Shown here one piece after another: positions 1,769 to 62,129 of a stretch of 64,000 nt of DNA (its first letter is position 1; each line of letters opens with the position of its first letter). The stretch is from Crossaster papposus (lineage: Eukaryota; Echinodermata; Asteroidea; Velatida; Solasteridae): positions 496,001-560,000 of the forward strand of contig JBAIAA010000665.1 in NCBI GenBank assembly GCA_037893245.1, given 5' to 3'. A program made the position numbers and the translations under genes. A model generated the notes under the pieces. That model saw only the letters and a list, made by a program, of their open reading frames with translations, did not search any database and was not told the origin of the DNA.

Positions 1769-2273
1769 AAGCATACATCTGGATATGGGAGCCCAAAGAG
1801 CTGTGCTAAATGGCTAAAAACGTAACGTAATCGTGGAATTGCCCATTAGTGAAAATTGAGAGGGTTACAGCATATTAAGCGCAGGTAACTTTGAGTTCAT
1901 TATGATCAGAAGCAACTTATCACAGTGAAACACCGCTAGTCTTGAACAAGAAGAAGAGAAACGATCCCTTTTCGTCTGGGTATGTGTCCTGCCACTGTTC
2001 CCCTTTTAGTATGAGTTATCAGTTCTCCCCGATATTCCAGCAAGAAATTGGCTTTTTTGAAATTCTTCTGAGCAAATGTTCCTCGATCGACCTAAGAAAA
2101 TCAAAACCAGCAAAAAGCATACATACCTGAGACAGTTTTTCATTTTCATCTATGAACACAAATCTTTATAAAGGTCAGTATCACTATACAAGTGATCCCC
2201 TGAGTCGCGAGTGTCGCCTTTTCCCCGCGGTCGATCCCTATGTTTAGTTTTCTTTAAAAAGTCAAATTTTGTG

Positions 2274-2595
2274 CATTTTTCAATGACCTCAAATGACCCC
2301 TTGATTACCTTTGACCTCCTATTTCAAAGGAGTTTTGATGAACCCCACCCAAGGATCACTCCATCCAAGTTACATTAAAATCCATCAAATTCTGTATACA
2401 TGTACAAAGAAACATTTGAAGTACCGGTATGTTTGAGCAATGACATCTAATGACCCCTTCATGACCTTTGACCTCTGTAACCCAATGAGGAAATGTGTCT
2501 TCCGACCCAAGGGTCACTGCATCCAAGTTTTATCAAAATCTGTGAAAGCATGTACATGTAGAAGTTATACACTATTATTTTCAAAAACTCATCAC
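2274..2595 (+). repeat. Two tandem diverged copies of a 'TGACCTTTGACC' repeat
   Basis: Two head-to-tail units of about 155 bp (about 2274-2430 and 2440-2595) share, in order: ATGACCTCAAATGACCCC-like sequence, CCTTTGACCTC, an AAGGRTCACT block and a CATCCAAGTT block. Repeats of this kind are widespread in marine invertebrate genomes (recollection, not checked here). The open frame inside it looks incidental. Confidence 0.6.
2462..2474 (-). promoter_or_regulatory. Perfect DR1 nuclear-receptor half-site pair carried by a repeat
   Basis: TGACCTTTGACCT, read on the minus strand, is AGGTCA-A-AGGTCA. This is the consensus direct repeat with 1-bp spacing that RXR, HNF4 and COUP-TF class receptors bind. 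The equivalent site in the neighbouring unit (about 2311-2324) has one half-site decayed. It lies within a repeat and far from any recognisable gene, so activity is only a possibility. Confidence 0.35.
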
Positions 2596-2644
2596 GCACG
2601 CTTACCGCCGCACCTCAAACTCGGGGCTAGGCGTTGTGCATAGC

Positions 2645-2810
2645 ACTGTTCACGACCTAAATTCTCCATTCTTGTTAAAAGAATGATTGACTGTAAACAT
2701 TTTTGACATTAATTAAGGCAAGTTTTTATCACTTTTTGAGGCAATATTTGATGGCTTTCGTAGCGTAAATGGAAACATTTAAAGCACGAGATGTGCCGCA
2801 GCAACCTTTT
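2645..2810 (+). repeat. Dispersed repeat, copy 2 of 2
   Basis: Same family and orientation as 485-650, with shared CACGACCTAAATTCTCCATT and ACATTAATTAAGGCAAGTTT blocks. It ends just before the start of the AGGGG-type transposon at 2839. Confidence 0.6.
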
Positions 2811-2838
2811 GAAAGGCATGTAATCGGAAGCATGACTA

Positions 2839-3812
2839 AGGGGTCGTCCAAAGTTGTGAACATTTTAATGGTCGTACAAAGCGTACGACACGGGGGAGGG
2901 GGGGGTCGGAGGCCGCGTACGACTTTAAATGCTGAATAAAATGTTGATTTTGTATCGTACAATCAGCAAAGGAAAATTATATCATTTGAGGTTTGGTTTT
3001 TTTAATCAGAAGCGATACAAAGTCCGCTGTTCTAAAAGGATTGCTTCAGCAGGTATACCTTGTTTACAGCTATTGTGCAACTCCGAGAAAAAAAACCTGA
3101 TGCGTCCCTAGCGTAGCTGGCGCGAGGATAGGATACTTTTGACGCCGCCCGCCCTACACGCCACAGCGGCCGAGTTGGCAATGATTTCGTATAGCGCAAC
3201 GTTAACCACAAGGTGTACACATACGTGCGCGCATGGACGAATCCCACAAGTGTGTTACTGTACATGTACATGTAAATGACGTACATGTACAGTATATCAA
3301 CACCCTGAATAGAGCGCGAAGGTGCCAAGTGTGAATGAATAAACCTTTGACACGACTGTACTGCGAATCGTTCCCACAGCTGTGCATGGACATGGTGCAC
3401 GCCATGCCCCACCGCGCTCTACCGGTGTTTGGAGTTTGTACACTTGGGACGAGGTTGTCACTGCCGATGATCATGGCGTCGCACTGTACCGGTACTTGTT
3501 GCAGTCCGATCGTTGCAGTCCAGAGACCAGCCATGCTTTTAGCATTGTACATGTATGTTTAAAATAAACTATACAGCAAGTACTATGAGTACATTGTTTT
3601 TGACAAAATTAAATGTTCATCTGCTTTTGTTTTTAACTTGCATTGATCATCAGCAACATGAAAAATGTAAAATGATGATAAAACATGTGCATCAACATTG
3701 AAAAAATACAATGTTGAAAAGTACTACCGTACTTTGGGGGGAGGGAAGGGGGTCTTGAAAAGTAGTACGCTCTGTACGACCTTAAAAATGTTGACAACTT
3801 TGGACGGCCCCT
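2839..3812. mobile_element. AGGGGYCGTCC-type DNA transposon, copy 1
   Basis: The left end AGGGGTCGTCCAAAGTTGT and the right end ACAACTTTGGACGGCCCCT are inverted repeats. Similarity continues inward for about 60 bp (AACATTTTAATGGTCGTAC, AGCGTAC). The interior is non-coding and shares a block (about 3005-3215 and 3300-3430) with the second copy at 7830-9488. It encodes no transposase, so it is non-autonomous. I could not settle the target-site duplication. Both copies are preceded by CATGACTA, so the true left end may lie a few bases further out. Confidence 0.75.
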
Positions 3813-3873
3813 AAACATTAGCAAAAATTAAACCAAGACTTTTTAATCATGCTGATAATTTAGTAAAAAGGTT

Positions 3874-4060
3874 CTTACCAATGTACTCATTGATGAACTG
3901 CACTTCAAAGAAGCCGCCACTGTCTGTGCCTCTGATGCATGGTTTTGAAGCCTGTTGTAGTGGTTCACATGATCTCCGAGAACGAAGCATGATTGTGGGT
4001 CTCAGGAGGTTACTGCAAATAATCAATATCTATGTAGTTACATTTGACCTGACAACACAA
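3874..4060 (+). repeat. Dispersed repeat R-TACC, copy 1 (partial)
   Basis: It begins with TTCTTACCAATGTACTCATT, followed by GATGAACTGCACTTCAAAGA and a GGTTCACATGATC block, and ends near GGAGGTTACTGCAAAT. The same order is found at 5717 and 9527. Beyond about 4060 similarity is patchy; an AAACAAAAAATACC block at about 4265 matches one at about 5930. From there to about 5390 I see no gene and no clear element. Confidence 0.6.
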
Positions 4061-5398
4061 AATAAGCGTAAAGTCGCACTATGGCTCTTCCGAGTTACAA
4101 GAATAACAATAATTTTAACTGAAAAGTCAATTTTGGGATTTTAACAACTTTCTATTTGAAAACTGTTCTGTCATATCCCAAAGTTTTTTAACTGAATTTG
4201 TTTTAACAGATCAACAACTTTTAACTTCATTTTTTAAAACAATGGTCAAAACTCTGATGAGGACAAACAAAAAATACCTTTGGTTCGGGTCACCGGACAG
4301 ACCCTATCTCCGAAAGCCATAAAATGCGACTTTATACAATTGTATTAGTTTGAGTTTAAAATACTTAATTGTACCATAGCGATTTTCGATCATAATCGGC
4401 GACTGCAAACAATGTTATCGACATTGACTAGTGGCCATAATATATTTCCCATGGAAAAAGTGGAATGCCAAAAGAGAATTAACGTAACGTTACGCATTCT
4501 CCCGTTCCTTCCCAGAACACGATTGCGTGCATGCCCTCTTGGCTGCACTTAATTGAGACAAGCTCATCAATTTTCTCAAAGCAAAGGTACCGTTTGTGAA
4601 TTCTTTGCTACTAAATGGAAGAATAACATTGAGAATAACACACAAAGTTAGTTGCTACATCTGCTTACTTGGCCACGTGTGTGATTTCCAGACGTATATA
4701 GCCAAGTTCGAACGCGGCCAACATCGCCTTAGCACAGCAACAATGGAGAATTTGTCGACATACTGTATTGCATGCATGCATATCCGCACTGATAGTCAGA
4801 AATGGTTGTTTTTGTGTGTGGTGCTCGTGATGTGTATATCACCGTACATTTATGTTTATATAACTGGCATACAGATCCTTGATTGGTGGAACTCACATCA
4901 CAGGACATTCATTTCTCCCATTAATGCCGGTGCTCAAAAAGTCCCATTCGCCCATAGGGAATGGGAAATACTATTCAACGGCTAGGATCATCCTTGATGC
5001 GCACAGCGCTACAGAGCTGGATTAAAACATTTTTGTGAAGGGGTAGTTCGGAAAAGTGCAAGGATCTGTTTAAGATCAAATGACGAGGATCTGTATCTCG
5101 GTTATATAAAACAAATATTGAGTGGCATTTAATCGTGAAATGGGATTAATATTCCACTCTGAGCCACTTAATATTTGTATATGTCGGGTGTGGCCAATCT
5201 ATACTGTCAAGTCTATCGGGCACGCGCGCCGGCATGCATATACCGCGGCACCACGTTTTCCTGCGTCAGTGACCGTCGTGTCGTACGTGTATATGCATTG
5301 TTTAAAAATGACAGCAGTTTTCGCCATAGACCTCGGCGAATGTAAACATTTTTCAAAAACAAAGAGCACATTTTTGCCTGTTAATCTCAAGAAGATGT

Positions 5399-5538
5399 TC
5401 AACAAGCAAGGTTTTGAACACGTTCAGTACGCGGACAGAACGTGGTATTTAAATGCCGAGTATAAACAGGCCTCACCGCTTCGATTCAACAAACAAGGTT
5501 TGAACGCGTTCAGTCCGCGAACAGAACGTGGTATTTAA
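5399..5538 (+). repeat. Imperfect tandem duplication, about 90-bp period
   Basis: AACAAGCAAGGTTTTGAACA at 5401 recurs as AACAAACAAGGTTTGAACG at about 5490. Each is followed by GTTCAGT-CGCG-ACAGAACG and GTGGTATTTAAATG. The 138-aa open frame across it is best read as a by-product. Confidence 0.6.
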
Positions 5539-5716
5539 ATGTTATCCGCGTCTTGTGTTTATTCATGAGTTGAAATTTCTCAGCAACATTAGCGCCCGAT
5601 TGGGCTAGCTTATTAACTTCGATGCGCTGGGGTGCGCACGTGCGTGCAGTTCGCAAACTTTCCTGCCCCCTTGACAACGGCGGACTTTCCGCAGAATCAA
5701 GGTAAGGACGAATTGG

Positions 5717-6400
5717 TAAGCTCCCTTACCAATGTACTCATTGATGAACTGCACTTCAAAGAAGCCTGTTTGTTGTGGTTCACATGATGATCTCTGCTGA
5801 ATGAAGTACACTACGAGTCTGGGTCTCGATCAGGAGGTTACTGCAAATATTCAAAATGTATGATTAGAAATACTGTATGCATGTTAACCCTATGCAAAGG
5901 GTTCAACATGTCACAAGTTAAAGGCTAAACAAAAAATACCAGACCAACCCTATTTTTAGAAAGGATAAAATGCGACCCCACAAAATGTTAAGTGTTATTG
6001 GTTATTGGAAAAAATATTATTACGATACAAACTTTCGATCATATTGGTGAAAATCGCCGAACACCAAAACAATTTCAGCCAGTGATTGTTTTCTTTCTGG
6101 TATTATCCGAAAGACAAACATCGTGGTTTAACGTACATGTACCATGGCATGGAGGAAAGAACACGGACAAACAGGTCAAGAATTCGAACGAACGAGGTTC
6201 GAACGGGGTCCTATTTTTTCTGTGAACCAAGAATGTCTGAAACGCTATTGTTACGTGTCAAAATATCTGAAACATGAACAATATACGTTTCAGACATAGC
6301 GATTACGTTTCAGACATTTCAAATGTCTAAAACGTAAGCTTCCTAATCACCGAATTATTTAGACATTTCCAAACCTCAAAATTTCTGAAACATATAATTA
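5717..6400 (+). repeat. Dispersed repeat R-TACC, copy 2 (contains the empty TTAA site)
   Basis: It runs parallel to 9527-11060, sharing the TTACCAATGTACTC start, the ATGTATGATTAGAAATACTG block, the CCGAACACCAAAACAATTTC block and the ACATGTACCATGGCATGGAG block. At 6128-6131 it has TTAA exactly where the third copy carries two inserted MITEs. Its distal part (6230-6390) is rich in forward and inverted ATGTCTGAAACGT words. Confidence 0.75.
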
Positions 6401-7677
6401 GGTTATAAAATGAGAAAAAGAAATCTTACGCTCCAGCTGCATGCACTATATCTGCAATGCAACCTTAACTCCCTGGGGTGTGTGGAAAATCATATTGAAA
6501 TTTTAGGCTGTTCGCTTTACGCGATCCTTGCCCGGCATTGTTGATTTTTCTGATTTTCTTCCTAACAAATTCAATGCCGTTCATTTAGCAGAGGGATAAC
6601 TTCATCAAAAACCTGTTGACAATATTGGAGCACCAGCCGCATGCAGGGTGATCGCAGCCTCGACTCCATATGAGCGTGTGCGCGTTATCGCGAAGGCATG
6701 GTGGGAAAAAATAGCGCAGCAAGATCATAGCCATGGTAACGAGGTTGGGGTGATTGTAACGACTATCGTTTGCCTCGTACACGTACACGTACACGAACAC
6801 AAACACGCATTCGTATTGTGCACTGCGCGTCACGTGTACAGTAGCACTGAGAAAAAGAAAGTCAGTTGACTTTGCAAGTACGATCTGCCGTACTTACTCC
6901 TGCTGGTACGTGTGTTGCGGCGGGGTGTCGCAGCTAGAAGTATCGGCATACTCCGAAATTAGCTGGACTTGGCTGTACATACAAACATGTACAGTACATA
7001 GCGTGCGCTATATTTATGGGGCCTGATTGCGAAGCTAGATTCAGTTTGTGTCGTTAACGTTGCTGCGTGCGCGATACGTAACGTATGCAGCGATATTTTT
7101 TTCTAGAACAATGATTCAGTGATTAGAATACTAACATTAGGCTGAAGGATGTTTTTGCAAAAAAGGGCACGACGGCCAAGGTAAAAATTGGGCAAGGCAA
7201 AACTGGCCGTGAAGACGGCAATTTTTAGTGGGGCACCTCGGCCATCAAAAAGGCAACAACGGCAATGGCCGTCGTGGCCGTCGTTTACTTCAAGCCCAGG
7301 TATGGTTCCTAAAATAATAATAATAATAATACTAATACTAACATATATTTAAACCTAAAAAAAAATTAAAAAAAAAAAAATGTCATGCTGACCGACCGAC
7401 CCAATTGTTTTCTCACCATGTGACCCAAACCAAAGTTTGTTGGTTGTATGATACACAACACACAATGTATCTATAATTAAAGCTTGCAACCTGTACTTTC
7501 AGGAAATACCATAGTCTTGATTTTGAAATTTTGCAACTTTACGCCCACTTCCGGGCAACAGGTCACATACGTCATTCTTGTGTTTATGACTTCTGACTAG
7601 CGCCCCCAAATAAAGATACTGACAATTTGGGAGACCGCCAACATACATGTAGGCTAGCCTCATTCATAGGGCATTGC
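6400..7677. other. No gene seen
   Basis: Non-coding. It contains a (CGTACA)-like run at about 6775-6800, a GACGGCCAAGG/GGCCGTCGT-rich stretch at about 7165-7285, short TAA and A runs at 7315-7380, and nothing else I can support. Confidence 0.4.
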
Positions 7678-12570: not shown

Positions 12571-13518
12571 GGGCCCAATTTCTTGGCTCTGCTAACCACA
12601 GAATTCCTCGCTTACGGTCATCATTTTCCGCTAACCGCGCTAGCAGAAAAATTATTTGCTCACCGGGTAAGCACAGAATCCTTAGTTTCGGGATGTACGC
12701 ATGCTCAGAGACCAAAATTCCGCGCTAACGCGTAAATACGTTTACCGTAAGCACCGAATTTTCTGCTCTAGGCTGTTTTCCAAACCCCCGGCTTTGGCTT
12801 CGTCTTCGGCTTCGTCTTCGGCTTCGTCTCCATTCCGCCATTTTGAAGCCCATATACCAAATGGAGGCTTTGGCTTCGGCTTCATCTAGAGGCTCCGTTT
12901 TTTGCTAAATTATGAAGCCTGCCGAGGAGGTGACTTCGTGGAGGCTTCGTGACGTATTGTCACGTGATACAAGCCACAAAATTATCACAAACAAAAAAGT
13001 TTGCGACGGCCGCCATTGTTTTTGCGGTGTGTCGGGGTGTTTGCAAGGAAGTTTTCACCGACAATTCACTGTAAGTTTAATGATTTTGTTAAAAGAAATT
13101 TACCAACTCAAGTGAAAATGTTACGTGTAACCATGAAGATAATCATACTATCTATAGGACCTAGGACAACATTTCTAATCCTAACGTTATGCTACCGTTT
13201 TTTCGACGAAAGTTGAATTCCAACTAGTCCAACCAACTTCCATGCAAACCCGCACTAGTCGAAGCCACTAGTACTACTAGTCAAGCTGCCTGGTTATTAA
13301 GTTATACATGTAAATAAAGGCAGTGGGACAGTGGCTATTGTTATGGCAGTCGGCCTTCTGGCTTCTTTTGACCCGAAACTATTGATCATAACAAGTTTCC
13401 ACAAGTCGGTATGATAAGGGCATGTTATACAGGGTGTAGCCTAACGTTAGGCATGGATTTATTCGCAATTTCTGTTCAATTTACTAGATCATCTAATTTA
13501 GATGGAGCAGTCGGCACC

Positions 13519-14318
13519 TACCCCTAGAACTCTGGGTCTCCCGACGCCCGTAGGGCGGAGCCCCATAGATAGAGAGGGTTTTTACAGGTTAACCGCCGTT
13601 AAACAATAGAAACCGTGCACAAATTCCGGGTAATAACTCCATACTGCCGCACGGTCTACCCCCCAAAAAAAATTGTATGAGTACTTTATCAACTCACCCA
13701 GCTGTGGCCAACCAAAAACCGGTCGAATCTCGGCCAATTTCTGTAAAAAAGTGAAAACTATGCCCGTTCCGCAAACGCGATTGTACAAGATGGCGGATAA
13801 ACTCGTGCGTAATTAATTTCAAGCTGCAGCCGCCGCGCATTAGCCGTTTTTGAAACACAAACTTCATCTTGCCAGGCCTTATCCATACAGTTAAGCAATG
13901 CACCGGAGGCACGGCCACAAAAGACCGAAGCCAGGGTTTGGAAAACAGCCCTGTCATCGTCGTTCAGAGAAGCCATGTGATTGGTCCGCACTGACCCCGG
14001 CCGGGGTCACGGTACCAACTGTTCATTGAACGTCCTTATCCGCCATCTTGTAACAGTCGCGTTTGCGGAACGGGCATAGTTTTCATCTTTTTTACAGAAA
14101 TTGGCCGAGATTCGACCGGTTTTTGGTTGGCCACAGCTGGGTGAGTTGATAAAGTACTCATACAAATTTTTGGGGGGGTAGACCGTGCGGCAGTATGAAG
14201 TTATTACCCGGAATTTGTGCACGGTTTCTATTGTTTAACGGCGGTTAACCTGTAAAAACCCTCTCTATCTATGGGGCTCCGCCCTACGGGCGTCGGGAGA
14301 CCCAGAGTTCTAGGGGTA
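13519..14318. mobile_element. 800-bp foldback element with 9-bp target duplication (Mutator-like)
   Basis: Arms of about 285 bp (13519-13805 and 14032-14318) are near-perfect inverted repeats starting TACCCCTAGAACTCTGGG. They enclose a spacer of about 225 bp. GTCGGCACC occurs directly outside both ends (13510-13518 and 14319-14327), a 9-bp duplication. Long TIRs plus a 9-bp duplication are the hallmark of Mutator/MuDR elements. The spacer has open frames on the minus strand (for example 13758-13991) of no recognised family. Confidence 0.8.
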
Positions 14319-16280
14319 GTCGGCACCCATTCTGAGAATCGCACGGCATGCCGTAACAATAGCCAGTTTAACTGAGCGCATTGTTACACCTCGTTGTCAC
14401 ATGCATGTTAATACAAAAAATAAGTGAAAATAGTTTTATATTCAATACCAGAATCTGAGTAATACTAGGCTAGGCCTACAAAAAAGAAAATATTGCTAGA
14501 GATTTAGAAAGAATGTAGCTCAAAAATTTCACCTCTAAAATCTCAACATGTCATAAGCTTTAGAGCTGGAAGCTGGAAGGAAAAGGGGTTAGTTTGGAAA
14601 TTAACAACTAATTTCTTTTTGAAATAGAAGTATACTTTTATTGTGTTTTGATTAAATTGATTAGTTTCTATTATAAGCAGAATCTGTACTAGATGACGTA
14701 AGATAAACCAAATATTTGCTGCTTAAACTGAACGAGCCATAAACCAATTTGGTGATCCCTGTGGAGCATTTCCTCAGGAAAAACACAATGTCTTGTTTGG
14801 GAGGCAAATTTGTTTGCACCAACACCACCACTTGAAGCATTCAATGTGTGTGTATACCTAACTTGTTATTTTGTCCTAGACCATCACCATTCTTAATTCT
14901 GCTTTTGTTTATTTTCTTGATGGTTCTTAGGTTCTGAGGATATTCAGAATTCAAGCACAGGTAAACTCCATCGTTGACTTTCTACACCACCATGGATTGT
15001 GTGCACTAGGAAAGATGAGCAACTCATTTTCTTCCCACTACTTATTTCTAGCAGTGGATGAAGGTTCATTCTCCAATACAAGCCTCTCCAAGTCCATCAG
15101 CCAAAAGAGGGAGAATCTCACTTTATGCTTGCCAGCCGTGTTGTTATAAAGGATCTTTGACAATATAGAGACTAATTGCACAGGTGTATTCTGAGAAAGC
15201 AAAGCTAAAGATCTGTGCTGAGTGTGCTCACATATTTGCTCACCTAAATCTCCCAACTTTGAAGAAAAACAATTCACTCCCTATTTATGTTGTTTACACT
15301 GGAACAGCATGGAATTATTGGAACAGGTCCTGGTCAACTTAACTCAACTCTCTTATTTATAATGCCTATGCCTGCACTACAAATGACTGTTGGTATTTGT
15401 TTATATGCTGGGGAAAATTCTATTTCAAATAATCAATTGTCAGCAGTAGAAAGTCTTGAAGTATAAAATGTAGGCCTGACAATAATAATGTTATTTATGA
15501 AGTGCAAACGTTATGTACATAAATTTAAATGCACTGTAAAATGATAAAACCAGATTCATTAAAATATTAAAAGGCAAAAATCCACGTACATCACAAACTA
15601 CTATTACATCAAGAAAAACAACATGTTTTTAAGGAATACAATTTTTACAACCTATCAATCAAAAGCGATTTGAAAAAGGTTGGTTTTGAGCAGCCTCTAT
15701 TTGAGGCCTCAATCTATTTTTAAAACAAACCTAATCCTGGCATGTCTTTAAATTTGTGAAAACTTACTTCGAAGGAGCTATTATTGTTTTAGAGTGGTAC
15801 TGGTGGTAGGGGGTTTCAATAATATATATTCCCAGAAGTCACAGCAAAGGATACATTACAATTTCAAAATTTAAATATTTTGTTGTTGTTGGATTTTCTT
15901 TTGCAGTTTTGTCTTTTGAATTATTTGTGTGAGCACTTATTTTTTAATTTTATATTCTCAATTTAATCTTTTGTTTAGTTTTATATTGAATGATTTGTAA
16001 TTATGATGACCTGTCTTAATCTAAATGTTTATTTTCCAATGTTATAACCTTTTTGCCAAATAAACCATCAGTAATAATACATGGTTGACAAGTACATATT
16101 TATTTCCTTGAAAGACGGACACAGAATATTAAAGGAGCATCTTACTTTTAGATCGAATCTGCAGATCAAATCGTAAAAAAAGAATTACAAGGTATCTTCC
16201 CGAAGTAAAAGTAGATTCCGTTTTTAGCAATAGCGATGCAAACAAATTATTTTGAATGAGGCATTGGCCCGGCACCTGCC

Positions 16281-17565: not shown

Positions 17566-18873
17566 GCTGGGGTCTAGCTACTACGGTCAACTAGACTACG
17601 GTCACATCACCATCACGTCACATCACCATACTTAATCGCCAGATTCCTTCCACTGCATTGGTCTTGGATAAAGACTAGGTCCAATATCATGAAGCTGTTA
17701 AACACACAAATTAATTGCTTAGCTTGACAAATCGAAACGTTGAGTTCCCTCCGGTTCTTTTCAGAAATAAAATTTAAAAAGTAAGGATTTTTGTTTAAAT
17801 ATACCTAAGAAAGCACAACGATGATTAGACAGGGGTTGGATTTGTAGTAAAACTTACTTTGAAGATTAAATTAATGAATACATTTGCCGTCTATAATCAC
17901 TGCGGCTGGAAAACTGATAAACGCATCTTTACGTAACAAATCAAACAACCGAGAAATCATGCATAAAAACGATCTTCAACAAAATGTTTACCCTCTTTGC
18001 CGAGTTTTTGTTAAAATATCTTTGATATCACTTGAAAGAATAATAATTATTCTGAATAATACTGTTCAATTCCAGTAAAAGGGAAAACGTTAGTTTGAAA
18101 TAAAGTTGTTTTTCTTGCCTACCCTCTTCACACGACAGCTTGTGGGGAGGAGGGGGGGGTAGTTTTGTAGTAAATGAATGGAGCTAGGGTTGGGACGGGG
18201 AAATTAACTGAGCTAGGGGTTGGGCCGTGTAAATGAATGAAGCTAGGGTTGGGTAGTGTAAATAAACGGAGCTAGTGTTGGGTTGGGTAGTGTAAATTAA
18301 CCGAGCTAGAATTGGGCCTTGTAAATGAATGGAGCTATACTGGTTGGGCCTCTTCAATGAATTGAGCTAGAATTGGGTAGTGTATTATTAACTGAGCTAG
18401 GGTTGGGAAGTGTAAATGAATTTTGGAGCTAGGGTTGGGTAAGCCCAACCCTATAGCTCTATTCAGTCCAGCCCTTGCTCTGTTCATTTACACATCCAAA
18501 CCCTATAGCTCCATTCATTTACATGGCCCAACCCCTAGCTCCGTTTATTTACACTACCCAACACTAGCTCTATTCATTGACACGGCCCATGCAACCCTAG
18601 CTCCATTCATTTACAAGCCTCAACCCTAGCGCCATTCATACACGGCCCAATTCTAGCTCAATTCATTTACACGCCCAAGCGTAAAGCTCCGTTCGTTACG
18701 GCCCATATATCGCTCTATTTTACACAACCCAAACGTAAAGCTCCGTTCGCTAACACGGCCCAACCCTAGCTCCGTTAATTTTCTCGGCCCAACACTAGCT
18801 CTATTCATGTACAAGGCCCAACCATGAATGGAGCTAGGGTTGGGACGTGGAAATGAACAGAGCTAGGGTTGGG

Positions 18874-18933
18874 CCAAAGATCGTAGAGCGCTCGACCCTA
18901 GAGCGCCGCTGCGCGGCGCTCTAGGGTCTTTGG
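18874..18933. repeat. Short GC-rich palindrome inside the minisatellite
   Basis: CCCTAGAGCGCCGC (18896-18909) and its exact reverse complement (18913-18926) flank a TGC loop. An outer CCAAAGA/TCTTTGG pair lies at 18874-18880 and 18927-18933. The 60-bp cassette interrupts the 29-bp array, so it may be a very small foldback insertion. Confidence 0.6.
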
Positions 18934-19338
18934 GTTGGGCCTTGTAAATGAAGGGAGCTAGGGGTTGGGCCTTGTAAATGAATGGAGTTAGGGTTGGGAC
19001 GTGTAAATGAATGAAGCTGGGGTTGGGACGTGTTAATAAATGAAGCTAGGATTGCCGGGCTTTGTAAATGAATGGAGCTGTAAATTAATGGAGCTAGGGT
19101 TTGGGCTTGTAAATGAAGTTCATTTACAAGGCCCAACCCCTAGCTCCGTTCATTTAACGACCCAAGCGTAAAGCTCCGTTCGCTAACACTAGCTCACACG
19201 GCCCAACCCACTGGCGCAATTCATTTACAAGCCCCAACCCTAGCGCAATAAATACACAGCCCAATCCTAGCTCAATTCATTTACACGGCCCAAGCGTCAA
19301 GCTCCGTTCGTAAACACGGCCCAACCGTAGCTCTATAC

Positions 19339-20139
19339 TACGGAAGCCCGTTAGGGCCAGGTACCTCTTTCTCTTTCACAGAGGTTCGTTTCTCTTTCAC
19401 AGAGGTTCGTTTCTCTTTCGCGGTGGTGCGTTTCTCTTTCAGAACGTGTGTCTCTCTCTTTCAAGGGGCAAGTCCATTTTTCACAGGGGTGCATTTATCA
19501 TGTATTGCGATTAAGTCGCGGCCGCGAGTTAGTATGTCGCGGCCGCGACTTATTATGTCGCGGCCGCGACTTATTATGTCGCGGCCGCGACTTAATTATG
19601 TCGCGGCCGCGACTTACTAACTCGCGGCCGCGACTTAATTATGTCGCGGCCGCGACTTAATTATGTCGCGGCCGCGACTTACTAACTCGCGGCCGCGACT
19701 TAATTATGTCGCGGCCGCGACTTACTAACTCGCGGCCGCGACATAATTAAGTCGCGGCCGCGAGTTAGTAAGTCGCGGCCGCGACATAATTAAGTCGCGG
19801 CCGCGAGTTAGTAAGTCGCGGCCGCGACATAATTAAGTCGCGGCCGCGACATAATTAAGTCGCGGCCGCGAGTTAGTAAGTCGCGGCCGCGACATAATTA
19901 AGTCGCGGCCGCGACATAATAAGTCGCGGCCGCGACATACTAACTCGCGGCCGCGACTTAATCGCAATACATGTACATGATAAATGCACCCCTGTGAAAA
20001 ATGGACTTGCCCCTTGAAAGAGAGAGACACACGTTCTGAAAGAAAAACGCACTACCGCGAAAGAGAAACGAACCTCTGTGAAAGAGAAACGAACCTCTGT
20101 GAAAGAGAAAGAGGTACCTGGCCCTAACGGCCTTCCGTA
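19339..20139. mobile_element. 801-bp near-perfect palindrome rich in GCGGCCGC (foldback element)
   Basis: Two arms of about 400 bp meet at about 19740. Each runs from TACGGAAG-CCGTTAGGGCC and GGTACCTC, through three TTTCTCTTTC-containing units, to a tandem array of TCGCGGCCGCGACTTA-type units. I count about 21 GCGGCCGC (NotI) sites in about 440 bp. It interrupts a minisatellite unit; removing it restores GCTCTATTCATTTA, with CTAT possibly duplicated. The 65-70 aa frames in the arms are mirror images of each other and not genes. Confidence 0.85.
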
Positions 20140-23100
20140 CTATTCATTTACACGGCCCAAGCGTAAAGCTCCGTTCGGTAACACGGCCCAACCCTAGCTC
20201 CGTTAATTTTCTCGGCCCAACACTAGCTCTATTCATTTACACGGCCCAACCCTAGCTCCATTTATTTACAAGCCCCAACCCTAGCGCCATTCATACACGG
20301 CCCACTCCTAGCTTAATTCATTTACACAGCCCAAGCGTAAAGCTCCGTTCGTTAACACAGCCCAACCCTAGCTCTATTCATTTACACGACCCAAGCGTAA
20401 AGCTCCGTTCGCTAACACGGCCCAACCCTAGCTCTATTCATTTACATGGCCCAACATTCTAGCTCCGTTCATTTACACTACCCAACACTAGCTCACACGG
20501 CCCAACCCTAGCACAATTCATTTACAAGGCCCAACCCTAGCGCAATTCATACACGGCCCAATCCTATATAGCTCAATTCATTTACACAGCCCAAGCGTAA
20601 AGCTCCGTTCGTAAACACGGCCCAACCGTAGCTCTATTTATTTACACGGCCCAAGCGTAAAGCTCCGTTCGGTAACACGGCCCAACCCTAGCTCCGTTAA
20701 TTTTCTCGGCCCAACACTAGCTCTATTCATTTACAAGGCCCAACAATGAATGGAGCTAGGGTGGGCCGGGCCTTGTAAATGAATGGAGCTAGGGTTGGGT
20801 CCTGTAAATGAACCGAGCTAGGGTTCGGCCGTGTAAATGGATGGAGCTAGGGTTGGGTATAGTGTAAATGAACTAAGCTAGGGTTGGGTCTTGTAAATGA
20901 ACGGAGCTAGGGTTGGGCCTTGTAAATGAATGGAGCTAGGGTTGAGACGTGGAAATGAACAGAGCTAGGGTTGGGCCTTGTAAAAGAGGGGAGCTAGGGG
21001 TTGGGCCTTGTAAATGAACGGAGCTAGGGTTGGGACGTGGAAATGAACGAAACTAGGGTTGGCAAGTGTAAATGAATGAAGCTGGGGTTGGGACGTGTAA
21101 ATGAATGAAGCTAGGATTGCCGGGCTTTGTAAATGAATGGAGCTGTAAATGAATGGAGCTATAGGGTGGGCCGGGCTTTGTAAATGAATGGAGCTAGGGT
21201 TGGGTCGTGTAAATGAACCGAGCTAGGGTTCGGTCGTGTAAATGGATGGAGCTAGGGTTGGGTAGTGTGAATGAACTGAGCTAGGGTTGGGTCTTGTAAA
21301 TGGATGGAGCTAGGGTTGGGCCTTGTAAATGAATGGAGCTAGGGTTGGGACGTGGAAATGAACAGAGCTAGGGTTGGGTCGTGTAAATGAACTGAGCTAG
21401 GGTTGGGATGTGTAAATGAACAGAGCTAGGGTTGGGCCTTGTAAGTGAACATCTAGGGGTTGGGCCTTGTAAATGAACGGAGCTAGGGTTGGGCCTCTTA
21501 AATGAATTGAGCTAGAATTGGGTAGTGTATTATTAACTGAGCTAGGGTTGGGAAGTGTAAATGAATTATGGAGCTAGGGTTGGGTATAAGCCCAACCCTA
21601 TAGCTCTATTCAGTCCAGCCCTTGCTCTGTTCATTCACACATCCCAACCCTATATAGCTCCATTCATTTACATGGCCCAACTTAGCTCCGTTTATTTACA
21701 CCACCCAACACTAGCTCTATTCATTTACACGGCCCAACCCTAGCTCCATTCATTTACGAGCCCCAACCCTAGCGCCATTCATACACGGGCCAATCCTAGC
21801 TTAATTCATTTACACAGCCCAAGCGTAAAGCTCCGTTCGTTAACACGGCCCAACCCTAGCTCTATTCATTTACACGACCCAAGCGTAAAGCTCCGTTCGC
21901 TAACACTAGCTCACACGGCCCAACCCTAGCGCAATTCATTTACAAGCCCCAACCCTAGCGCCATTCATACACGGCCCAATCCTAGCTTAATTCATTTACA
22001 CAGCCCAAGCGTAAAGCTCCGTTCGTTAACACGGCCCAACCCTAGCTCTATTCATTTAGACGACCCAAGCGTAAAGCTCCGTTCGCTAACACGGCCCAAC
22101 CCTAGCTGTATCCATTTACATGGCCCAACCCCTAGCTCCGTTCATTTACACTACCCAACTCTAGCTCACACGGCCCAACCCTAGCGCAATTCATTTACAA
22201 GGCCCAACCCTAGCGCAATTCATACACGGCCCAATCATAGCTCAATTCATTTACACAGCCTAAGCGTAAAGCTCCCTTCGTAAACACGGCCCAACCCTAG
22301 CTCTATTCATTTACACGACCCAAGCGTAAAGCTCCGTTCGCTAACACGGCCCAACCCTAGCTCTATTCATTTACATGGCCCAACATTCTAGCTCCGTTCA
22401 TTTACACTACCCAACACTAGCTCACACGGCCCAACCCTAGCGCAATTCATTTACAAGCCCCAACCCTAGCGCAATTCATACACGGCCCAATCGTATATAG
22501 CTCAATTCATTTACACGGCCCAAGCGTAAAGCTCCGTTCGTAAACACGGCCCAACCCTAGCTCTATTCATTTACACGACCCAAGCGTAAAGCTCCGTTCG
22601 GTAACACGGCCCAACCCTAGCTCCGTTAATTGTCTCTGCCCAACACTAGCTCTATTCGTTTACAAGGCCCAACAATAAATGGGGCTAGGGTAGGCCGGGC
22701 CTTGTAAATGAATGGAGCTAGGGTTGGGTCCTGTAAATGAACCGAGCTAGGGTTCGGCCGTGTAAATGGATGGAGCTAGGGTTGGGTAGTGTAAATGAAC
22801 CGAGCTAGGGTTCGGCCGTGTAAATGGATGGAGCTAGGGTTGGGTAGTGTAAATGAACTAAGCTAGGGTTGGGTCTTGTAAATGAATGGAGCTAGGGTTG
22901 GGACGTGGAAATGAACAGAGCTAGGGTTGGGCCTTGCAAAAGAAGGGAGCTAGGGGTTGGGCCTTGTAAATGAACGGAGCTAGGGTTGGGACGTGGAAAT
23001 GAACAAAGCTAGGGTTGGGCCTTGCAAAAGAAGGGAGCTAGGGGTTGGGCCTTGTAAATGAATGGAGCTGGGGTGTTGGGACGTGGAAATGAACAGAGCT

Positions 23101-24144
23101 AGGGTTGGGCCTTGTAAATGAAGGGAGCTAGAAGTTGGGCCTTGTAAATGAATGGAGTTAGGGTTGGGACCTGTAAATGAACGAAACTAGGGTTGGCAAG
23201 TGAATGAAGCTGGGGTTGGGACGTGTAAATGAATGAAGCTAGGATTGCCGGGCTTTGTAAATGAATGGAGCTGTAAATGAATGGAGCTATAGGGTGGGCC
23301 GGGCTTTGTAAATGAATGGAGCTAGGGTTCGGCCGTGTAAATGGAAGGAGCTAGGGTTGGGTAGTGTAAATGAACTGAGCTAGGGTTGGGCCTTGTAAAT
23401 GAATGGAGCTAGGGTTGAGACGTCGAAATGAACAGAGCTAGGGTAGGGCCTTGTAAATGAACAGAGCTGTAGGGTTGGGCCTTGTAAATGAACGGAGCTA
23501 TGGTTGGGACGTGGAAATGAACAGAGCTAGGGTTGGGCCTTGTAAATGAAGGGCGATAGGGGTTGGGCCTTGTAAATGTACGGAGTTAGGGTTGATACGT
23601 GTAAATGAACAGAGCTAGGGTTGGGACGTGTACATGAATTATGGAGCTAGGGTTGGGTAGTGTAAATTAACTGAGCTAGGGGTTGGGCCGTGTAAATGAA
23701 TGAAGCTAGGGTTGGGTAGTGTAAATCAACGGAGCTAGGGTTGGGACTTGTAAATGAAGGGAGCTAGGGGTTGGGACTTGTAAATGAACGGAGCTAGGGT
23801 TGGGACGTGTAAATGCACAGAGCTAGGGTTGGGTCGTGTAAATGAACTGAGTTAGGGTTGGGATGTGTAAATGAACAGAGCTATAGGGTTGGGCCTTGTA
23901 AGTGAACATCTAGGGGTTGGGCCTTGTAAATGAACGGAGCTAGCCCAGCCAGCAAGACCAAGTGGGCCCCATGTGGGTTTTGATTGGGTTTGATGGGCTT
24001 AGGTGGGCTTGGGCTTGAAATGGGCTGCCCACATGGGTCCTGTGTGGGGTGACGGTAGGTTTTCAGTGGGCGTGGGCATTACATGGGCAAGAGGTATGGG
24101 TCCGGTGTGGGTATTTAGTGGGCTAAGTGGGCTGTTTATAAACC

Positions 24145-25165
24145 GTGTTTTAAGAGGGCTGGCCCAAGTGGGCCCTGTGTGGGATATAGGTGGGCCTGGT
24201 GGGCTGTATTGTAAGTGGGTTTTGAGAGGGCTGACCCACGTGGGCCCCGTGTGGGATATACGTGGGCCTGGTGGGCTGTATTGTAAGTGGGCTTTGAGAG
24301 GGCTGGCCCACGTGGGCCCCGTGTGGGATATAGGTGGGCCTGGTGGGCTGTATTGTAAGTGGGCTTTGAGAGGGCTGGCCCAAGTGGGCCCTGTGTGGGA
24401 TATAGGTGGGCCTGGTGGGCTGTATTGTAAGTGGGCTTTGAGAGGGCTGGCCCAAGTGGGCCCTGTGTGGGATATACGTGGGCCTGGTGGGCTGTATTGT
24501 AAGTGGGCTTTGAGAGGGCTGGCCCACGTGGGCCCCGTGTGGGATATAGGTGGGCCTGGTGGGCTGTATTGTAAGTGGGCTTTGAGAGGGCTGGCCCACG
24601 TGGGCCCCGTGTGGGATATAGGTGGGCCTGGTGGGCTGTATTGTAAGTGGGTTTTGAGAGGGCTGACCCACGTGGGCCCCGTGTGGGATATATGTGGGCC
24701 TGGTGGGCTGTATTGTAAGTGGGCTTTGAGAGGGCTGGCCCACGTGGGCCCCGTGTGGGATATAGGTGGGCCTGTGGGTTGTATTGTAAGTGGGCTTTGA
24801 GAGGGCTGGCCCACGTGGGCCCCGTGTGGGATATAGGTGGGCCTGGTGGGCTGTATTGTAAGTGGGTTTTGAGAGGGCTGACCCACGTGGGCCCCGTGTG
24901 GGATATAGGTGGGCCTGGTGGGCTGTATTGTAAGTGGGCTTTGAGAGGGCTGGCCCACGTGGGCCCCGTGTGGGATATAGGTGGGCCTGGTGGGCTGTAT
25001 TGTAAGTGGGTTTTGAGAGGGCTGACCCACGTGGGCCCCGTGTGGGATATAGGTGGGCCTGGTGGGCTGTATTGTAAGTGGGCTTTGAGAGGGCTGGCCC
25101 ACGTGGGCCCCGTGTGGAATATAGGTGGGCCTGGTGGGCTGTATTGTAAGTGGGCTTATGAGGGC
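24145..25165. repeat. 72-bp tandem satellite, about 14 copies
   Basis: The unit contains GGCCCACGTGGGCCC, GTGTGGGATATAGGTGGGCC, TGGTGGGCTGTATTGTAAG and TGGGCTTTGAGAGGGCT. The period is 72 bp (24 codons), so three long open frames stay open: GLAHVGPVWDIGGPGGLYCK on plus and GQPSQ- and ISHTGPTWA-type repeats on minus. I read these as by-products. Two variant units (GGCTTTGAG and GGTTTTGAG; GGCCC and GACCC) alternate, which suggests higher-order duplication. Bases 23945-24145 are a degenerate GTGGGCTT-rich lead-in. Confidence 0.9.
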
Positions 25166-25479
25166 TTGCCTTTTGGGCTGTTCTATTGTGATAAAGAGGG
25201 TACTAGCTGTATCATTTTATCATAGCTGTACCATTTCATCATACCTGATGCTAAACAACAATGCGCGTCATTTCCACGCGTAAATGCGTTCAAAAGACTG
25301 CACTCATAAGCCAGCGAGCACCGCGAGGCTGCCGTCCGCCTAAGTTCACACGCTGCTCAAGGCGCTACAACTCATTTGAGGGTCCACTCCCCGTTTTGTT
25401 TGAATATCAAGGCCCCTTTTGTTTGTTTAGGCCCATCCTAAAACACGAATGCTGCCAATTCATTATAGATCTGAACCGT

Positions 25480-52425: not shown

Positions 52426-52789
52426 GGTGTTAATAAATAGATTCTGTCGCCCCTCGTATGCATTCGGTTTATCAGCGCGCTTAGCAATTCTTCCCCTACA
52501 CCATACCCCCTGTTTTTGCCCGCTTTTGATGTATATATAGTTTGCACACTTCATTGTTCTTTCTAGTGCTTAGTAATTTGATTATTTCATATATATATTA
52601 TGTGCGCATACTATTTAGTGTTTTTGTGTATTTATCTTCCTTTAACGAGCCATGATGCAACGGGCGTACAAGACTTCAATGAAGATTGTGGGCGACGTTG
52701 TCGTCAATTGGACCTGCCGAATTGCAGTTATTACACCGGAGTGAGTATGGAGCAGAATCAGTGTCAAAAAGATCGGACGTGTTTTTACA

Positions 52790-53175
52790 ACTCGGATGCT
52801 TTTCTAATTCGGATGCTTTTCTAATTCGGATGCTTTTTTCAAACTCGGATGCTTTTTTAATTCGGATGAATTCGTAATTCGGATGCTTTTTGTAAACTCG
52901 GATGCTTTTTTAATTCGGATGAATTCGTAATTCGGATGAATTCGTAATTCGGATGCTTTTTGTAAACTCGGATGCTTTTTTAATTCGGATGTTTTTTAAA
53001 TTCGGATGCTTTTCTAGTTCGGATGCTTTTTTAATTCGAATGCTTTTCTAGCTCGGATGCTTTTTATAAACTCGGATGCTTTTTTAATTCGGATGCTTTT
53101 CTAGTTTGAATGCTTTTTGTAAACTCGGATGCTTTTTGCAAACCGAACATATTCGCAAATCGGATGCTTTCCCAA
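52790..53175 (+). repeat. Subterminal array of TTCGGATGCTTTT words, left arm
   Basis: More than twenty irregular copies of (A/C)TCGGATGCTTTT with spacers TTAA, GTAAA and CTAG, in irregular order. The mirror array lies at about 56520-57000 in the right arm. Such subterminal arrays commonly serve as transposase-binding sites; that role is inferred here. Confidence 0.85.
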
Positions 53176-53568
53176 TCCGGCACTAGGGTGGCCCTGAAAG
53201 GACATCACACATCGCAGATAGTTCTGCGATTTCGCGCATTCTGCGCGAATTTGAACGATGACAAACATGTTATCATATATATCTAAGCATATATCTGAGA
53301 TGTGGAAGATTTTATTGTAGATTTCTGCACAGATTTATGTGATAATGAATATTTTCTGGGCAGATTTTTGAAAAGTCGCATATTTTTATTTTAGATTTCA
53401 AGTTCTGCGCAGATTTCTTAGTACGCAAATTTGTGCGATGTCGCACGGATGGGCACTACATGTACATTTTCATTGCACATTTAATTATGCGCAGCTATAT
53501 GTCGCACTCACGTACAGCAGATTTATATACAGATTTATGTGCACATTTCTGCCGCGATGTCAGCACAT

Positions 53569-53660
53569 ACGACGTTTTGAAAGTTGAACCACGACGTTTT
53601 GAATGTTATGATGTTCTAAAACGGACAGGCAACGTCGTGGTTCAACTTTCAAAACGTCGT
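53569..53660. repeat. Perfect 30-bp hairpin inside the left TIR
   Basis: 53569-53598 and 53631-53660 are exact reverse complements (ACGACGTTTTG ... CAAAACGTCGT) with a 32-bp loop. A third half-copy follows at about 53661-53690. The right arm has the equivalent structure at about 56000-56120. Confidence 0.85.
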
Positions 53661-53716
53661 GGTTCAACTTTTAAAACGTCGTACTTCAACTTCCAATTAA
53701 CGTCCAACTTTCGCGC

Positions 53717-54950
53717 GCTTTTAACTGGTTCAAGGTAGCCGCGTATTCGGCCGGTTCTCTCCGCGCGGATTCAGTCCGCATTCACCAAAAGGCGACAAAT
53801 ATTTAATACATGCTGCAAAAGGTGATGCATATTCTAAAAAGTTTTTTGTCAATTTATTTAAAGAATTTTTCGAAATAAACCGTAAATATAACAATACTTT
53901 TTCAAACCCTTGTAGATCATACAGCATATTAGCCACACTTGTTTAACCTTTCCTGTAATTTTGATGAAAAATTACAGTTAAACTAGCTGCCTAATGAACT
54001 AAGTAATCCTACTTCGAGTTATTTTTATAGATTTGGAAATGAGAATGAAACATTTAAAACAAAATATACCTCACATGTTATCAAAAACTCATACTTTTAT
54101 TTCATAATCTACAAGATAATGTTACTGGGCATGTGGGTATAGGCTTCAGCGCTTTTAACTGGTTCAAGGTAGCCGCGTATTCGGCCGGTTCTCTCCGCGC
54201 GGATTCAGTCCGCATTCACCAAAAGGCGACAAATATTTAATACATGCTGCAAAAGGTGATGCATTTTCTAAAAAGTTTTTGGTCAATTTATTTAAAGAAT
54301 TTTTCGAAATAAACCGTAAATATAACAATACTTTTTCAAACCCTTGTAGATCATACAGCATATTAGCCACACTTGTTTAACCTTTCCTGTAATTTTGATG
54401 AAAAATTACAGTTAAACTAGCTGCCTAATGAACTAAGTAATCCTACTTCGAGTTATTTTTATAGATTTGGAAATGAGAATGAAACATTTAAAACAAAATA
54501 TACCTCACATGTTATCAAAAACTCATACTTTTATTTCATAATCTACAAGATAATGTTACTGGGCATGTGGGTATAGGCTTCAGCGCTTTTAACTGGTTCA
54601 AGGTAGCCGCGTATTCGGCCGGTTCTCTCCGCGCGGATTCAGTCCGCATTCACCAAAAGGCGACAAATATTTAATACATGCTGCAAAAGGTGATGCATTT
54701 TCTAAAAAGTTTTTTGTCAATTTATTTAAAGAATTTTTCGATATAAACCGTAAATATAACAATACTTTTTCAAACCCTTGTAGATCATACAGCATATTAG
54801 CCACACTTGTTCCTGTAATTGTAAAACCTTTCCTGTAATTTTGATGAAAAATTACAGTTAAATTAGCTGCTTAATGGAAGTAATTCTACTTCGAGTTATT
54901 TGTCAAACCTTTTATAGAAATTTCAAACAATACGGCAACAGTGTGGTTTT
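53717..54950 (-). repeat. 434-bp unit in three tandem copies
   Basis: Copies start at 53717, 54151 and 54585 with GCTTTTAACTGGTTCAAGG. The first two are nearly identical; the third diverges after about 54810. A fourth, inverted copy is in the right arm (about 55537-55966). Each holds the same 68-codon frame on the outward strand (MANMLYDLQGFEKVLLYLRF at its start; 53730-53936, 54164-54370, 54598-54804; 55750-55956 on plus). The copies are too similar to say whether the frame is selected, and no family is recognised. Confidence 0.9.
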
Positions 54951-54956
54951 ACAAAT

Positions 54957-55145
54957 TCAAGACCTGCTTTTATCATTGCTGTACTTTTTTTCTTTTGCCA
55001 CATGAATTGCAATTGTACATTTCTCTAAAGCACACCTGCAAGGACTATCTTTCCGTGCCCCACTCTTTCTATCTGGCAAGTGTTCTTTCAAGCACGAGTG
55101 GCAGTACGTAGTTTCCAAGATTCTTTTATATGCTAATTTTGACAT
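54957..55145 (-). CDS. Small Cys-rich open frame in the transposon core
   Basis: 62 codons from ATG at 55145. It reads MSKLAYKRILETTYCHSCLK at the start and later SPCRCALEKCTIAIHVAKEK. The cysteines C15, C18, C37, C39, C44 and H49 could form a zinc ribbon, like the Cys-rich tails of several transposases. It is in the only single-copy part of the 4.3-kb element, so it may be the last fragment of the lost transposase gene. The length is within chance expectation; no family could be named. Confidence 0.25.
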   Translation of the reverse strand: MSKLAYKRILETTYCHSCLKEHLPDRKSGARKDSPCRCALEKCTIAIHVAKEKKYSNDKSRS

Positions 55146-57429
55146 ATAACCGTTGTTCTTTGTTTACATTTTATGTAGTTTTGATAATATCTGCTTATTT
55201 GCACTCGACCTTAGAAACTTACATTTGACCCAAGTGTGCTATATATCGCAAAGAAATTATTATGGGGCGATATTAGGTGGAAATAAAAAAGAAATTATGG
55301 ACACGGTCTGAAACTGTATTTTACCTAACGTTCTAAGCTGACAAACTACTAGGATCCATCTAATGATGCAGAACTTTATAGTTGAAGGGCTGTTGTGTTA
55401 TTAAATAAAGTAACAGTTATCATTCTCATAAAATCTGGCGTGGTGAAATTAATTGTTGAAATTGTTGATTGACGAAACTGATTCACCGAGAACATTGCAA
55501 ATAAGTCCGAGTGCGAGTGCACTAATTACTGTTCGGCTGAAGCCTATACCCACATGCCCAGTAACATTATCTTGTAGATTATGAAATAAAAGTATGAGTT
55601 TTTGATAACATGTGAGGTATATTTTGTTTTAAATGTTTCATTCTCATTTCCAAATCTATAAAAATAACTCGAAGTAGGATTACTTAGTTCATTAGGCAGC
55701 TAGTTTAACTGTAATTTTTCATCAAAATTACAGGAAAGGTTAAACAAGTGTGGTTAATATGCTGTATGATCTACAAGGGTTTGAAAAAGTTTTGTTATAT
55801 TTACGGTTTATTTCGAAAAATTCTTTAAATAAATTGACAAAAAACTTTTTAGAATATGCATCACCTTTTGCAGCATGTTATAAATATTTGTCGCCTTTTG
55901 GTGAATGCGGACTGAATCCGCGCGGAGAGAACCGGCCGAATACGCGGCTACCTTGAACCAGTTAAAAGCGCGCGAAAGTTGGACGTTAATTGGAAGTTGA
56001 AGTACGACGTTTTGAAAGTTGAACCACGACGTTTTGAAAGTTGAACCACGACGTTGCCTGTCCGTTTTAGAACATCATAACATTCAAAACGTCGTGGTTC
56101 AACTTTCAAAACGTCGTATGTGCTGACATCGCGGCAGAAATGTGCACATAAATCTGTATATAAATCTGCTGTACGTGAGTGCGACATATAGCTGCGCATA
56201 ATTAAATGTGCAATGAAAATGTACATGTAGTGCCCATCCGTGCGACATCGCACAAATTTGCGTACTAAGAAATCTGCGCAGAACTTGAAATCTAAAATAA
56301 AAATATGCGACTTTTCAAAAATCTGCCCAGAAAATATTCATTATCACATAAATCTGTGCAGAAATCTACAATAAAATCTTCCACATCTCAGATATATGCT
56401 TAGATATATATGATAACATGTTTGTCATCGTTCAAATTCGCGCAGAATGCGCGAAATCGCAGAATCTGCGATGTGTGATGTCCTTTCAGGGCCACCCTAG
56501 TGCCGGATTGGGAAAGCATCCGATTTGCGAATATGTTCGGTTTGCAAAAAGCATCCGAGTTTACAAAAAGCATTCAAACTAGAAAAGCATCCGAATTAAA
56601 AAAGCATCCGAGTTTATAAAAAGCATCCGAGCTAGAAAAGCATTCGAATTAAAAAAGCATCCGAGCTAGAAAAGCATTCGAATTAAAAAAGCATCCGAAC
56701 TAGAAAAGCATCCGAATTTAAAAAACATCCGAATTAAAAAAGCATCCGAGTTTACAAAAAGCATCCGAATTACGAATTCATCCGAATTACGAATTCATCC
56801 GAATTAAAAAAGCATCCGAGTTTACAAAAAGCATCCGAATTACGAATTCATCCGAATTACGAATTCATCCGAATTAAAAAAGCATCCGAGTTTACAAAAA
56901 GCATCCGAATTACGAATTCATCCGAATTAAAAAAGCATCCGAGTTTGAAAAAAGCATCCAAATTAGAAAAGCATCCGAATTAGAAAAGCATCCGAGTTGT
57001 AAAAACACGTCCGATCTTTTTGACACTGATTCTGCTCCATAAGTGAGCAGATCTGCACGCGTTAGCGACGCTGCACCCGGGAGACACAGCCATCGAACCC
57101 AGACTAAATAACATTTAATGTCGATTGTACCGACCTGGGAGGTTTTGCCGCACACATACCGAACTGATGAATGCTATCACTATTATTAATTTGTGCCACT
57201 TCTCTCATGCTTTTATTATTTAACAAAAAATTGGGCCTCTTTGGCGGCGGTCATGAATGACCGTTTGGCGGAATTGCATTCGGGACGCCGTCATAGGCCC
57301 CAATAACTTAACTTGACACGAACGTATTCCATGCCCAGTATACGAATTTTAAGTTCAAATGTAATGATAATTGTTGCGGCTTCCTGTTTAACCTTAATAG
57401 TAATTTACGGCTATGTTAAGGCGGCAATG

Positions 57430-60945: not shown

Positions 60946-61248
60946 GTAGAATGTTGTTTATTTCTGTTTGGGGTTTATAGACCTCTTGCATACACGAGTA
61001 AACAATGTTGTTGTTGTTATTTGCATTGATATTCGTTTTATTTAATTTTTTTTAACCCTACAGTCCTCAATCCTCCGAAATCAATATGATTTTGCACACA
61101 CCCTAGGGAGTTAGGGTTAATTAAAAAAAAAATTGAGAAACATACCCTGTACATGTAATTGATGTTATTCACGCCGCGATTTTAAAGGTCTGATGTTAAT
61201 AATTCATTAAATTGTTTAATGAAAAAAAAAATTGCTTTATTTTCACAG

Positions 61249-62129
61249 GAGATCCAGAATACAGGGTTGCGAGGCGATCAACCTTCACAAAGATGTGGAG
61301 AAGATACACACCCTTCATCTTAACAACAAAACCAATGAGTGACTTGTGTTGGCAATGTCAACAAAATAACAACGGGGTGTACCGCAGCGCCAATTTGCCA
61401 GAGGACCAGAAACTCCAACGCCTTCAATGCCAAGAGGAGCATCTGCGTCTGGTATACATGGAGAGGGAGTTGTACCGCAACATGGTAGAGGAGGCTAAGA
61501 GAGCAGTCAACGAAGGGGAGAAGCTCGGCCGCAATGATGCCTGCAGCAGACCTGGTCAAATGCATTATGCATTTGACTTTGCCCAGCAAGTCCACTATCC
61601 AAGTGACCCCCTTCAGCCTGGGCCCATGTACTTTCTGTGTCCTAGAAAGTGTGGGATCTTTGGAGTGTGCTGTGAAGCAATCCCTCAACAGGCCAACTAC
61701 CTAATAGACGAAGGTGTTTCGGTTGGCAAGGGGTCAAATGCCGTCATCAGCTATTTGCACGACTTCTTTGAGAACTTTGGTCTCGGGGAAGAACAGGTAC
61801 ACTTACACTGTGACAACTGTGGAGGGCAAAATAAAAACAAATACGTAATGTGGTATTTTGCCTGGAGAGCAATGACAAGGTTACATAAGTCCATCACCGT
61901 GAACTTTATGATTGCCGGACACACCAAATTTGCCCCTGATTGGTGTTTTGGCTTAGTAAAGCAGAGGTACCGCAGAACCATGGTCAGCTGCTTGGCTGAC
62001 TTAGAAGAAGTGGTACGGTCAAGCTCGGTGAAGGGGGTAAATGTGCCACGAGTTGTTGGCACAGAGAAGGGCCATGGCATCGTCTAAACGTACAACTGGC
62101 AGGAGTTCCTGTCCCCATATTTTCATCAT
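61249..62129 (+). pseudogene. DUF7869-like gene: main exon with in-frame stop
   Basis: The acceptor TTTTCACAG precedes 61249. After the split Gly it reads DPEYRVARRSTFTKMWRRYT, KPMSDLCWQCQQNN (Cys pair), a helical KLQRLQCQEEHLRLVYMERE region, PGPMYFLCPRKCGIFGVCCE, then the core motifs VHLHCDNCGGQNKNKYVMWY and IAGHTKFAPDWCFGLVKQRY. Conserved D, N, H and C residues suggest a metal-dependent, DDE-like fold, but function is not established. TAA at 62085-62087 falls inside the conserved tail GIV-stop-TYNWQEFLSPYF; the frame continues unchanged after it, so this is a recent nonsense change. The end at 62129 is a guess. Confidence 0.75.

Follow-up and report, generated by a model that had tools for sequence, protein, structure and literature searches.

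The window analysed here is a stretch of 64,000 nucleotides of Crossaster papposus (contig C665, positions 496001 to 560000, of a 1.02-Gb genome), and it contains at positions 52746 to 57041, on the forward strand, a complete non-autonomous IS3EU-like transposon with the termini TATGG...CCATA. We consider it most probably a copy of a young non-autonomous family of DNA transposons, mobilised in trans by an IS3EU/GingerRoot-type transposase, an integrase-like enzyme of the DDD/E class. The insertion itself is confirmed as real, complete and correctly bounded, and the element is an ordinary kind of transposable element. The assignment draws on tips shared between copies, target duplications that are mostly 6 bp long, a family of several hundred copies with near-identical cores, and an empty site, all observed directly in the genome.

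The element is 4,296 bp long and its termini read TATGGAGCAGAATCAGTGTC...GACACTGATTCTGCTCCATA. It is bounded on both sides by an exact copy of AGTGAG, the 6-bp target duplication, with neither copy assigned to a strand; the left copy (52740–52745) was recognised from the sequence and from the empty site described below, the right copy (57042–57047) from the sequence. Inverted-repeat comparison delimited a left arm of 1,405 bp (52746–54150, forward strand) and a right arm of 1,506 bp (55536–57041, reverse strand). The inner arms are 99% complementary over 929 nt and the outer stretches 96–97%, and the length differences between the arms are located in an array of 17–19-bp units. A 31-nt tip pattern, searched with up to three mismatches, occurred within the window only at the two element ends, against a mean of 0.00 in 100 shuffles. 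Ends, arms and duplication thus lie exactly where the original prediction, made from the letters of the window, had placed a complete transposon with terminal inverted repeats of 1.4–1.5 kb.

The first 475 bp of the element were compared with the whole genome. The best 40 of 1,383 candidates, which include the window copy and six copies sharing its flank, were 99–100% identical and all started at query base 1. These copies therefore end at the same base; copies ending at other positions, which had been named as a possible refutation, were not seen among the 40 scored matches. The 20-nt tip, with at most two mismatches, was found at 537 + 507 = 1,044 places genome-wide, compared with 1 + 1 = 2 for a control pattern. 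Among the first 100 tip places listed, all of them exact, 88 formed 44 forward-then-reverse pairs and 12 were solo. Extrapolation from the tip counts gives a family size of roughly 500–600 copies. A variant tip beginning TATGAAGC (TATGA) has 313 + 278 = 591 exact genome matches (control 0 + 0); in its list, forward-reverse combinations 12 kb, 18 kb and 77 bases apart were not counted as elements. The exact 20-nt tip had no match among IMG/VR viral contigs. Altogether 39 loci were fetched, five of them (L019, L028, L032, L037 and L045) without a second tip. A core of 617 bp is mostly kept in 33 of the 37 elements read, in each case 99.0–100% identical to the majority sequence. This sample is biased, since most of its members are best matches to the window copy and six share its flank. 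Even so, such near-identical cores show a recent spread of the family.

Target duplications were scored at 75 distinct sites where both flanks were read, comprising 30 loci including the window, 28 exact-tip pairs and 17 variant-tip pairs. The six copies with the window's flank (L009–L014) were excluded from this count, as were L034, which has the element and right flank of L035, and L124, which has the left flank of L114. An exact 6-bp duplication was present at 46 sites, and 12 more had a 6-bp duplication with one or two mismatches (ten of them with one). When flanks of different sites were paired as a control (n = 5,550), exact duplications of 6 bp were found once and of 5 bp five times, 6-bp matches with one mismatch 27 times and with one or two mismatches 214 times, so that about three imperfect duplications, and less than one with a single mismatch, are expected by chance. 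An earlier subset of 31 sites gave 18 exact duplications, with 1 of 930 in the corresponding cross-pair control. A target preference is also seen beyond the duplication. At 35 exact sites, the fourth position beyond the duplication, read outward, was C at 39 of 70 ends (p = 4e-8 against 25%), and at both ends in 15 sites, the window site not being among those with this base. Palindromic target motifs extending past the duplication are described as general for Drosophila terminal-inverted-repeat and long-terminal-repeat elements in the part of the report available (PMC3276498).

The site before insertion was also found. The flanks of the window copy, joined through one AGTGAG, make 301 bases which are identical over their whole length (301/301, 100%) to C153:1154841–1155141. 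The sequence predicted to result from removal of the element, TTACACCGG-AGTGAG-CAGATCTGC, has its junction inside this match. As judged from alignment coordinates and identities rather than from the letters of each place, a further 21 places match the joined flanks over positions 1–301 at 96–99%, some with small gaps, and the other 18 of the 40 scored matches (183 candidates) at 87–99%, some of them partial. The host sequence, window positions 52595–52745 and 57048–57197, is consequently a multi-copy repeat, found in the genome also without the element. Loaded with the element, this repeat occurs on seven contigs, which share a left flank of 0.96–1.05 kb at 99.1–100% identity and a right flank of at least 1.2 kb at 99.6–100% with a gap of about 50 bases, where these were fetched. 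The most economical history has the element inserting once into a copy of the repeat and the loaded repeat then spreading. Three of the seven copies are 4.3 kb long and four about 3.86 kb; as copies with the same flank differ in length, the number of the 434-bp units described below has changed after insertion.

As regards classification, the available parts of a published survey give TA..TA ends for every complete IS3EU family, 6 bp as the usual length of the duplication, and 17 of 45 IS3EU families in Repbase as autonomous, so that non-autonomous ones exist (PMC10045372). In the corresponding parts of a study of rust fungi, IS3EU families have TAYGG..CCRTA ends, 6-bp duplications and terminal inverted repeats longer than 30 bp (PMC12730594). 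In our material all 74 ends of the 37 elements begin with TATG, the elements having been picked by their tips with up to three mismatches, and TAYGG..CCRTA is found in the window copy and at 72 of the 74 ends read; the usual duplication is likewise 6 bp. GingerRoot, which also has 6-bp duplications and mostly TA..TA ends and shares a group with IS3EU in the published tree (PMC10045372, as far as available), is separable from IS3EU only by the transposase. IS481EU, another eukaryotic DDD/E transposon group, resembles the element in its TNT..AYA ends and differs in its duplications of about 4, 15 or 25 bp and its terminal inverted repeats of mostly less than 50 bp (same survey, in part); these duplication lengths do not predominate among the 75 sites. 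With the published marks present, IS3EU is the best filing. The original guess of IS3EU was right about the termini and the usual duplication, and the transposase that would settle it was found in no copy read. We regard the copies as a probable new non-autonomous family within a known class of element, placed with IS3EU/GingerRoot on the basis of its termini and duplication instead of its transposase.

Several observations weigh against this assignment. No frame of whole-transposase length was present in the 37 copies read, in agreement with the earlier statement that a full transposase is lacking: the maximum was 168 amino acids in 35 copies and 171 in the two longest, with only selected frames scanned against Pfam and with a frame search that an intron-split gene would escape. 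The integrase core domain rva_4 (PF24764), which we take to be a domain of IS3EU-type transposases, had 434 candidates in the genome, of which the 150 scored all exceed the curated threshold (best E 2.7e-79; matches in 0 of 14 control genomes). None of these 150 listed places was inside the 62 tip pairs compared, the nearest being 9,456 bases away; the comparison covers about a tenth of the family, and 284 of the 434 candidates are unscored. The duplications are not uniform: besides the 12 imperfect 6-bp cases, eight of the 75 sites had an exact and one an imperfect 5-bp duplication, five had no visible duplication and three were ambiguous, in simple repeats. Relatives encoding a transposase with a duplication of another length had been named as a possible refutation; none was seen in the copies read, the main length being 6 bp with a 5-bp minority. 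In the 591 TATGA tips the fifth base does not agree with TAYGG. Finally, full-length copies of the family have arms of about 1.2–1.5 kb carrying arrays of 17–19-bp units, and arms this long with arrays are absent from the available parts of the published IS3EU descriptions (PMC10045372, PMC12730594).

The same observations feed the strongest rival, an unlikely one in our estimate, namely that the element is non-autonomous but belongs to another or a new superfamily, for instance an undescribed integrase-like group near GingerRoot or IS481EU, and that its tips match IS3EU by chance. The copies without a visible transposase, the large sub-family with TATGA tips, and the long arrayed arms and 5-bp minority, both absent from the IS3EU descriptions as far as these are available, would suit it. 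However, the five terminal bases of the window copy and its duplication length agree with the partly available IS3EU accounts, and the duplication lengths given there for IS481EU are not the prevailing ones here.

Much less probable is a Foldback-like or Polinton-derived remnant, which would account for long arms containing tandem units and, in the case of Polintons, for a 6-bp duplication; Polintons/Mavericks, however, end in AG..CT and the window element in TATGG..CCATA, Foldback duplications are about 9 bp, and the four element frames scanned gave no credible Pfam match. Other groups with duplications of about 6 bp, such as some hAT and Dada, also have features that do not fit these tips. 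A segmental palindrome or assembly artefact instead of transposition, conceivable for this one site where seven contigs carry the same flank and insertion, is refuted by the empty site and by the individual exact 6-bp duplications present at 46 of the 75 distinct sites.

Under the preferred reading, an IS3EU/GingerRoot-type transposase acting in trans would bind the TATGG tips, perhaps aided by the subterminal arrays of 17–19-bp units, mobilise the element and insert it at a target whose strands are cut 6 bp apart, and the gaps would be filled by host repair. The window element would have landed in one copy of another repeat, which in its loaded form later came to be present on at least seven contigs. 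The system is useful in that this non-autonomous family is clean, recently spread and high in copy number, has an empty site, and lives in a genome with many integrase-like transposase genes, so that an IS3EU-type element could be paired with its mobiliser and the pair tested. A transposon riding inside another repeat is a further point of interest; otherwise this is ordinary transposable-element biology.

The imperfect 6-bp duplications (L027, L031, L041, L042, L046, L047, L050, L052, L060, L062, L092 and L108) showed a pattern of their own, noticed after the fact and from 12 sites. Of their 14 mismatches, 13 are at positions 1, 2, 5 or 6, and in the ten single-mismatch cases all ten lie within two bases of an end. 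Read along the contig, the difference lies at the right-hand end in ten of the 12. A T stands two bases out at the mismatching end in 11 of 12 cases, compared with 24 of 70 ends at exact sites. By analogy with retroviral integration, insertions might leave a fingerprint in the two bases adjoining the element, a short 5' overhang or error-prone fill-in being retained in repair. We hold this to be doubtful; the first base out usually agrees between both copies of the duplication, contrary to what a random two-base overhang would lead one to expect. If true, the chemistry of IS3EU-like transposition could be read from genomes.

The internal layout of the window copy was resolved by repeat comparison and, for the core, by frames and Pfam; all parts are on the forward strand unless stated otherwise. 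A left subterminal array of 17–19-bp units with 19 exact CGGATG cores (52793–53166) is followed by 22-bp repeats of AACGTCGTGGTTCAACTTTCAA type, which form an internal inverted repeat (53568–53696). Two copies of a 434-bp unit (53715–54148 and 54149–54582) are followed by a partial unit (54583–54901), which matches the first 310 unit positions and borders the core (54902–55537), in which stop-to-stop frames do not exceed 75 amino acids. Another 434-bp unit lies within the right arm (55538–55971, reverse strand). Most copies of about 3.4 kb flank the core with a full unit at one side and a partial unit of 310 positions at the other; in the window copy two further full units are added in the left arm, on the side of the partial unit. 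At 4.3 kb it is longer than is typical of the family: among 44 tip pairs the median span was 3,474 bp (range 1,683–7,708 bp). The longest stop-to-stop frame of the window element has 129 amino acids, and four of its frames gave nothing better than E 0.082 against Pfam, a value below the cut-off that belongs to a cysteine-rich frame of 68 amino acids in the core. A short frame running from the left host side into the element (52582–52821) had no Pfam match.

The search for longer relatives with a transposase, proposed together with the original prediction, did not succeed: the longer copies read hold nested inserts and no transposase of the family. As candidates for an autonomous copy we rejected L048 (7,375 bp, duplication TGACCA), which has a Harbinger-type insert, L049 (7,708 bp, duplication GAGGGC), with an unrelated repeat in its right arm, and L035 (5,206 bp), L018 and L026, whose inserts lack long frames. 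The piece nested in L048, at about 2260–6570, is read as a remnant of a Harbinger-type transposon, with an HTH_Tnp_4 match of E 4e-5, below the Pfam cut-off, and weak similarity to DDE_Tnp_4. The 9.3-kb copy C91:135615–144900 (duplication TATTCC) had no long frame in the 751 bases sampled, and for the copies of 5.1–6.0 kb on C35, C278, C279:3902549 and C64:990996 the flanks only were read. Matches to rve_3 (PF13683), compared by eye for the best 150 of 2,341 candidates, included none inside these elements; those listed are mostly on C8 and C1027 and in long frames read as being of a retroelement kind.

Some further observations were made in passing. Contigs C8 (at least 5.2 Mb) and C1027 carry rve_3 frames by the dozen with equal scores, many of them 313 amino acids long and free of stops; they resemble a bacterial chromosome carrying an insertion sequence in many copies, and the assembly may include a bacterial symbiont or contaminant. 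Elements L034 and L035, 25 kb apart on C356, have the same length of 5,206 bp and a common right flank with different left flanks, as if a duplication or exchange had broken at the element. Elsewhere in the window we noted a 153-nt inverted repeat, 99% complementary with its halves 496 nt apart (13518–14319), perhaps another small element with terminal inverted repeats; a dense field of units of about 29 bp with a 72-bp tandem array (18170–25272); an inverted repeat without spacer, 98% complementary (19533–19960); a long tandem array with a 12-bp period, much of it perfect, from 45733 to about 46600; and an open frame of 294 amino acids (61203–62087) matching DUF7869 with E 1.1e-13.

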